Shown: piece after piece, positions 11,470 through 13,302 of the stretch
Layout: every line of letters begins with the position of its first letter
How positions within the stretch are numbered: the stretch's first letter is position 1
Assembly: GCA_021161545.1 (NCBI GenBank)
Contig: JAGHAJ010000205.1
Coordinates: 1 to 17,463 of the forward strand
Length of the DNA: 17,463 bases
Source: Synergistota bacterium
GTDB lineage: Bacteria > Synergistota > JAGHAJ01
Reading direction: 5' to 3'
Notes under the pieces: model-generated
Databases searched by the model: none
The model's input: only the letters and a program-made list of their open reading frames with translations
What the model was told of the DNA's origin: nothing
Position numbers and translations under genes: made by a program

Positions 11470-13302
11470 TCAGAAACCCCTCCTTTGTAGTTGATTTTCC
11501 ATATAGCATCTCAATATCTCACCCACACTAACGGCAGAAAACCTTAACCCATGTGGACCATAGGGCATGCTACCATCAAACACCTGCGATATAAAGCCTA
11601 TGCCCTGCTCCCTGAGATGTGCATAAAACGGTTCCAGCAATATACCGATAACATTGTATGCATCATCCCCTCTACTTCTCACCACTGCATTTATGAAAAA
11701 TCCAAGTAACCACGGCCACGCCATCCCCCTATACATTGCCTTGTGTTTATCTCTGCCCACCATATCATACCTACCTTTATATCTCTTATTCCTTGGATCA
11801 AGGGTCCTCAAACCATACGTCGTGTAAAGCCATGCCCACAGTTTATCAACCACACTACTCAATCTCTTCCCATCAACAACAGGATAGCTCAACCCAACCG
11901 CCAGCACCTGGTTACTTCTCACATCCTCACACTTGACATCACCATCTATGAAATCATAAAGGTATCCCTTCTCATCGTTCCAGAAGAGAGAATTAAAGCT
12001 GCTTTTTATCTCAACAGAGAGCTTATCCAACGCAGAAGCATCTTTCCCAAGAAAATCCGAAAGCTCAGCAAAGAACCTCACAGCATTATACCAGAGGGCA
12101 TTAACCTCTACAAGCTTTCCCTTCCTATCCACTGCCTGTCTCATCCAGTTAGATTCCTCTCCCACGCTAAGCAGATAATCATCACCTGCTATAGAGCGCT
12201 TCTTATTTAGAAGCTTAGAAATTACTGGATAAATATCATCCCAGAAGTCTTCATCTTTCACCTTCTTAAAAAACTCCCCACATGCATACAAAAACCACAA
12301 GGCAGAAACACCACTGCCATAAATGGGTTTCCCATCTTCTATGGTATCCGGTAACTCACCGTTACCTTCATACTTCAACCAGTAAAGCAGGAACTTCCTT
12401 GCATCACCAAACCTGCTGGTAGAAAGCATTATACCCGGAAATGCTATAGATGCATCCATGATATTTTCTCTGCCAACCAACGCATCGTTTAGAATACTCT
12501 TACCCTCTCCCCTATCGACCACGAGCTGACGCGCAGATTCCGAAAGTATGCCACCAAGACTGTTATCATAAGCTACTTCTACTGGAACCAGCTTTTCATC
12601 TATATCAAAATCCCCTCTATCAGTTATAACAACGTGTATTTCCTTTCCAACCTTGAGAGAAAAGCTAAATTCTCCCGGACTCCACAGGTCTTCCGAACCC
12701 CCTTCAACCTCGTATATCACATTCTCGTAGTCAGTCTCCATCTCTCTGTATTCACCAGACTTGCACAGCATAAAAACGCTAAAATCACCACAAGATATCT
12801 CTATACCATCCTTTATCCTCTTTTGCACACACTCATCCTTACGCTCTTGCCCAACATAGTGCAATCCCACAAGAGGAAATACTTTCAAAACCACACCATC
12901 AGGAACATTTACAGGAATATATCTTATAAGCAGAGAGTTACCCCTATCCTTCAAAAAGGCTATCTCCTTCTTGAATATCAAATCGTGGACTACAAAGGTA
13001 AATTCTGGCTGCGACCTCAGAGAAAAGGCTTGTATATATCTATACCCATCGGGATAGACCATATCCCTGTATTTATTGGTATAAAGCGGATATTCCTTTC
13101 CCCTCAAAACAACCTTTTCATCTACTTTAGAAACAAGGATAAAACGCCTCCCATGATAATGTGCTACCAACAACCCAGAATTCTCAGAGACATTAACCCC
13201 TATAGCAGTAGAAGAGGCATATCCACCCCTTCCATTTGACAGAATCCACTCTTTACTACTACCCTTCTCATAACTGTTTATCTCCGTTTTCCCAAAATAC
13301 AA
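11470..13302 (-). CDS. GH133/glycogen-debranching-enzyme-like protein with altered catalytic motifs
   Basis: A 610-residue protein resembling bacterial and archaeal amylo-alpha-1,6-glucosidases. The N-terminal beta domain begins [15 protein letters not shown] (18-32), and the (alpha/alpha)6 barrel holds [13 protein letters not shown] (396-408) and MAWPWLLG (527-534). The family's key acidic motifs look changed: the usual WGRDT is LVGREN (275-280), TWMDA is NWMRQ (385-389), and SEIFDG is SQVFDG (572-577), so the residues thought to be general acid and base are Arg388 and Gln573. The C-terminal GC.AQAWS motif is also missing. It may be an inactive, regulatory or altered-specificity paralogue. 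The start is TTG with an AAGGGAGATG SD in the end of yvcK, 6 bp after the yvcK stop; gap follows after 1 nt. The family call is fairly secure; enzymatic activity is doubtful. Confidence 0.82.

Follow-up and report, generated by a model that had tools for sequence, protein, structure and literature searches.

Pseudo-glycosidases that act as lectins or regulators are represented by the chitinase-like protein YKL-40 and by the BAM-type regulators of plants. They belong to other folds and families than the protein described here, which appears to resemble them in that a glycosidase fold was retained for binding or regulation after catalysis had been lost. We know of no pseudo-glycosidase in family GH133, and a full-text search of the literature yielded neither an account of an inactive GH133 group nor any mention of Synergistota with a debranching gene next to yvcK.

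In the glucosidase of the C. glabrata debranching enzyme (CgGDE), D1241 is the acid and E1492 the base, and debranching is abolished by each of the substitutions D1241A, E1492A and D1078N (PMC4837477). Miglustat in the GDE pocket touches R1077, D1078, D1241, E1492 and Q1508 (PMC13299489). With respect to the gene neighbourhood, the closest described system is the B. subtilis operon yvcJ-glmR-yvcL-crh, in which GlmR directs carbon into peptidoglycan and is required on gluconeogenic carbon (PMC6171935). The GDE-like gene treated here was encountered on a contig of a Synergistota bacterium (JAGHAJ010000205.1); the whole stretch of 17,463 nucleotides that was analysed is called the window. The genome it belongs to is a draft of 1.58 Mb that is 82% complete.

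The GDE-like protein of the window and its catalytic site

The window gene (11470-13302, minus strand) encodes a protein of 610 amino acids composed of GDE_N and GDE_C, a pseudo-GH133 protein in which the catalytic acid and base are replaced. An earlier note had described an intact frame in a tight operon. Both points hold, as the frame is open over 610 codons without an internal stop and lies between yvcK and gap on the same strand, 6 bases after the former and 1 base before the latter. The TTG start is supported by residue 1, which aligns with the MYLGK start of the orthologs. Pfam GDE_N (residues 17-222, 1.5e-41) and GDE_C (residues 283-598, 3e-62) together span nearly the full length of the protein. 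TIGR01561 (gde_arch, NCBIfam) gave a whole-length match as well, the score of which (237.8 bits) is under the curated cut-off of 364.15 bits. Because the Pfam match to amylo-alpha-1,6-glucosidase is far over its cut-off, automatic annotation will tend to predict glycogen debranching for genes that lack the catalytic residues.

By phmmer, only weak matches to PDB sequences were obtained, and a profile was required for the window protein. An AlphaFold2 model with an input alignment of 41 sequences reached a mean pLDDT of 91.5 and was matched by Foldseek to the amylo-alpha-1,6-glucosidase of Thermococcus gammatolerans (7vma; 1.1e-17). Structural comparison of the model gave a Z of 34.5 with 7vma and of 36.8 over 374 residues (rmsd 2.7) with C. 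glabrata 5d06, and GH94 phosphorylases and GH116 glucosidases were also on the Foldseek list. The GDE_N and GDE_C domains and the (alpha/alpha)6 fold expected of GH133 are present, and the protein, as modelled, is an intact debranching-enzyme fold.

With the GH133 enzymes of archaea and bacteria (7vma; TIGR01561) the window protein shares the two domains, the length, the full-length fold and the motifs NALWYN, GLRTL and PWLLG; the core NALWYNA and PWLLG is retained, as had been stated before. It differs from them by the replaced acid and base, the loss of the W1075 and Q1508 columns, YRG instead of HQG, the score below the TIGR01561 cut-off and the location of its gene outside a glycogen operon. 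The GC domain of 5d06 has the (alpha/alpha)6 barrel and D1078 in common with the window protein, whereas the glucanotransferase half of eukaryotic GDE is absent from the latter.

CgGDE numbers were assigned by direct matches (11tn sequence + 4 = 5d06 numbers). At the columns of R1077, D1078, D1241, E1492 and Q1508 the window protein has M282, D283, R388, Q573 and S589. Of the five minus-1 contacts, the sugar-binding D1078 alone is thereby retained, corresponding to D283 (codon 12454-12456, minus strand; roles according to PMC4837477 and PMC13299489). The general acid D1241 is lost to R388 (12139-12141, minus strand) and the general base E1492 to Q573 (11584-11586, minus strand; both roles PMC4837477), while N280 and G329 are found in place of the main-chain contacts W1075 and N1125.

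Three motif losses had been claimed initially. Those of the acid and base columns were borne out by the alignment, TWMDA being replaced by NWMRQ and SEIFDG by SQVFDG, and the AQAWS stretch is indeed gone and reads FSAVS. The third loss, in which LVGREN was taken for the equivalent of WGRDT, goes back to a wrong register. Two alignments and the direct CgGDE match (query 283 'DASIAFPG' versus 'DVFISLRG') rule out LVGREN and place N280-I281-M282-D283-A284 in this column, so that the aspartate is kept and W and R are lost. As two catalytic acids are gone and the frame is intact, the pseudoenzyme reading is well supported with regard to amylo-1,6-glucosidase; judged by the aligned residues, so is a loss of GH133 catalysis in the window protein.

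Variation and selection across the Synergistota group

GDE_C was present in 80 of 185 genomes of the phylum. Orthologs of the window gene were identified in about 70 Synergistota genomes of seven families, and the members of this group are 32-37% identical to the window protein. In the tree, the group separates from the enzymes of family f6 and of Bacteroidota with an SH-aLRT of 100. The window protein falls into this clade and away from canonical GDE, though its branch is long and its exact place inside is unsure. The canonical GDE of Synergistota (f6/g26) has the phylum and the domain pair in common with the window protein, but retains WGRDT, TWMDA, EIFDA and AQAWS, and its place in the tree is among the Bacteroidota enzymes and outside the window clade. 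No debranching enzyme of the normal type, suggested as something to look for, was found besides the GDE-like protein in the 82% complete window genome, which disclosed a single GDE_C gene; extra GDE_C matches across the phylum were fragments. The phylum was deduced from the Synergist_CTERM sorting domain, which was detected in 26 of the 41 related genomes but in no control genome (14 examined); the window genome itself had no match to it.

The acid column, which follows an invariant W-M, is occupied in the 67 readable orthologs by S (22), D (15), N (13), G (7), E (4), F (2), A (2) and H (2), and in the window protein by R. With canonical rows and the window counted in, the tree requires at least 20 changes here, and 77% of the GDE_C columns vary less; as far as the sequences tell, the general-acid column is unconstrained across the clade. 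At the base column E1492, E was found in 59 of 66 orthologs and Q in the other seven. Together with the window protein there are eight departures, every one to Q, which required at least five changes on the tree. That all of them are Q suggests that the shape of this residue may matter and its charge may not. R1077 is retained in 62 readable members, and the D1078 column contains D (50) or E (15). No readable member has W1075 or Q1508, and the N1125 contact, like W1075, is lost clade-wide.

The degenerate site is thus largely a trait of the phylum-wide orthologous group, beyond the window protein alone, and the group probably arose from amylo-alpha-1,6-glucosidases. The window copy is further degenerated than the group, since it lacks R1077 in addition to the two catalytic residues; without acid and base it is presumably the member least likely to be active. 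The group may be regarded as a natural series leading from a glycosidase to a non-catalytic protein, with members that retain D, members without the acid and members without either acid or base.

Close pairs within the group exhibited dN/dS values of mostly 0.03-0.06, with a maximum of 0.16, and pairs in which both partners have Q in place of the base gave 0.042 and 0.061. The values of canonical f6 pairs were 0.09-0.11. The low dN/dS even of the Q/Q pairs indicates that the genes are maintained. Purifying selection in the orthologs, which extends to those whose base is replaced by Q, and the synteny found throughout the phylum (see below) support a retained task.

The ortholog of one genome (G011; L133, about 7253-9211) is split into two overlapping frames of 509 and 192 amino acids, reflecting either a frameshift or a sequencing error; in its close relatives G003 and G175 the GDE-like gene is intact. 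Two GDE-like proteins of Bacteroidota (L003 and L005) contain IPLQT or IPRQT at the WGRDT column and retained TWMN/TWMD. L003 has SEVYEG at the base motif, while the sequence of L005 ends before it. They possibly represent a separate degenerate line of the family.

Gene order and a candidate role beside GlmR

All genes of the operon reside on the minus strand. Directly upstream of the GDE-like gene lies yvcK/glmR (13309-14307; CofD/YvcK family), preceded by rapZ (yvcJ; 14317-15174). Directly downstream follow gap (10464-11468) for glyceraldehyde-3-phosphate dehydrogenase, pgk (9272-10462) for phosphoglycerate kinase and tpi (8508-9275) for triosephosphate isomerase. The assignments are based on synteny and a family scan, in the case of tpi on synteny and naming from sequence. 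The gene order of the group is rapZ-yvcK(glmR)-whiA-(GDE-like)-gap-pgk-tpi. In all 69 fetched genomes (families f2, f3, f7, f8, f10 and f11) the GDE-like gene is located downstream of yvcK on one strand, and gap-pgk-tpi succeed it in nearly all of them, where contig and fetched stretch reach. The three fetched members inspected for it each have whiA between yvcK and the GDE-like gene, one of which was confirmed as HTH_WhiA. In the window, whiA is missing at 13302-13309, and an HTH_WhiA gene was not found in the 82% complete genome. The order rapZ/yvcJ, yvcK/glmR, whiA/yvcL is shared with B. subtilis (PMC6171935); where B. subtilis continues with crh, however, Synergistota have the GDE-like gene followed by gap-pgk-tpi, and the window differs additionally by the absence of whiA. 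In most genomes devoid of the GDE-like gene, rapZ-yvcK-whiA-gap-pgk-tpi persists.

We give an even chance to the reading that the group is a phylum-wide pseudo-glycosidase of GH133 fold, whose likely function in the GlmR/gluconeogenesis operon is that of a regulator or of a partner that binds sugar. The general acid varies freely in the group, while of the other minus-1 sugar-site residues R1077, D1078 (as D or E) and E1492 (as E or Q) are mostly retained. This drift, the shape-conserving exchange at the base and the mostly kept R and D/E suggest a pocket that may hold a sugar without cleaving it. The protein would most likely sense or bind a hexose, a hexosamine or a nucleotide sugar, and may act with GlmR and RapZ in allotting triose-phosphate and gluconeogenic carbon to cell-wall or storage sugars. 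Given its fixed place by GlmR and RapZ and before gap-pgk-tpi, the group may have taken on the task of a sensor or a partner protein in the partitioning of carbon. The fold, the homology, the residue losses, the conserved gene order, the purifying selection on orthologs and the persistence in genomes with no glycogen genes detected are observed; the lack of hydrolysis, the binding of sugar and the partnership with GlmR we infer from them. Sugar binding or regulation of the glycolytic operon, which had been brought up before, is plausible in view of the location and the conserved binding residues.

There are points which speak against this role. D is present at the acid column in 15 of 67 orthologs and E at the base in most, and some members might be active. 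The window copy no longer has R1077, which is a contact to the sugar. Furthermore, the gene is dispensable, as it is absent from about half of the phylum, and its conserved position is no proof of a shared pathway. The narrower proposal that the protein is a sugar-sensing component of a GlmR metabolic checkpoint, wired with gap-pgk-tpi in Synergistota, is put forward as tentative and rather doubtful. If true, it would reveal a previously unknown tie between gluconeogenic flux and the supply of cell-wall precursors in amino-acid-fermenting bacteria. The group adds an unstudied component to the neighbourhood of GlmR, RapZ and WhiA.

Alternative readings and the glycogen genes

The main rival of a sugar-binding pseudo-glycosidase is an altered-mechanism enzyme in the members with E at the base column. 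The group would still be enzymatic with another mechanism or substrate, and E1492, which most members have, would act together with a displaced acid on another sugar. Alternatively, phosphate or water may act with no base from the protein. The window copy would be a further variant. We consider such an enzyme unlikely. It is favoured by the base E in 59 of 66 orthologs, by residues outside the canonical set that are invariant in the clade (K59, N76, R88, K509, R511 and M527) and may belong to a rebuilt, constrained site, and by the phosphorylases and glucosidases on the Foldseek list. It is disfavoured by the repeated change from E to Q under strong purifying selection on the orthologs, by the unconstrained acid column and by the window protein, which has neither catalytic residue. 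GH94-type phosphorolysis requires an acid at the D1241-equivalent position. As this acid is missing and the match concerns the fold only, GH94-like phosphorolysis was discarded.

Another possibility, which we deem quite improbable, is a non-catalytic subunit that binds or targets glycogen, i.e. still a protein of glycogen or alpha-glucan metabolism. The protein has the fold of a glycogen enzyme, most of the phylum possesses GlgA together with a GlgP-like gene, and both GlgA and a branching enzyme of GH57 are encoded in the window genome, making a glycogen link in the window lineage possible. However, GlgA, GlgP, GH57, GH13 and GH77 were not found (E<=1e-3) in at least six genomes of 93-100% completeness, all with the GDE-like gene (G006, G028, G144, G145, G146 and G177), where for a few genomes absence means no match among the matches listed. 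G019 and G055, which kept the gene, have only a weak GH57 fragment out of the glycogen genes looked for. Conversely, GDE_C is absent from many f4 and f5 genomes possessing GlgA and a GlgP-like gene. The gene of the group was never located in a glycogen cluster, unlike that of the canonical f6/g26 enzymes, which sit elsewhere with GH57 adjacent and a GlgP-like gene nearby (one genome inspected). The clade-wide loss of the main-chain contacts W1075 and N1125 also argues against this subunit. Thus, of the earlier idea of a pseudoenzyme with a new task, the loss of the amylo-1,6-glucosidase residues in a maintained gene stands, while a role in glycogen binding is weakened by the genomes with the gene and without detected glycogen machinery. 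On contig 95 of the window genome (L178:2116-4350), a single frame of 745 amino acids adjacent to a GH57 gene was noticed, the first part of which matches models of a sugar-1-phosphate nucleotidylyltransferase and the second those of a GlmM-type phosphomutase.

Decay of the gene in the window lineage, i.e. a recent pseudogene by chance still open, is very unlikely: despite changes at seven of 47 near-universal positions (no other member of the phylum has more than five), the missing upstream neighbour whiA and the frame break in the G011 ortholog, the frame is intact over 610 codons, the model confidence is 91.5, and the rate of the gene relative to its neighbours (1.61) lies within the range of other families (1.34-1.70). 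Nor does this range support a uniquely fast evolution of the window copy. For one Bacteroidota row, 12 departures at 52 near-universal positions were counted.

Two further observations were made in the window. The region 4750-8496 contains citC-, citE- and citF-like citrate lyase genes, named from sequence and convergent with the gap operon. At 16001-16912, a MoCF_biosynth protein with an N-terminal MOSC domain is encoded in one frame, the 3′-end of which overlaps a HAD gene.
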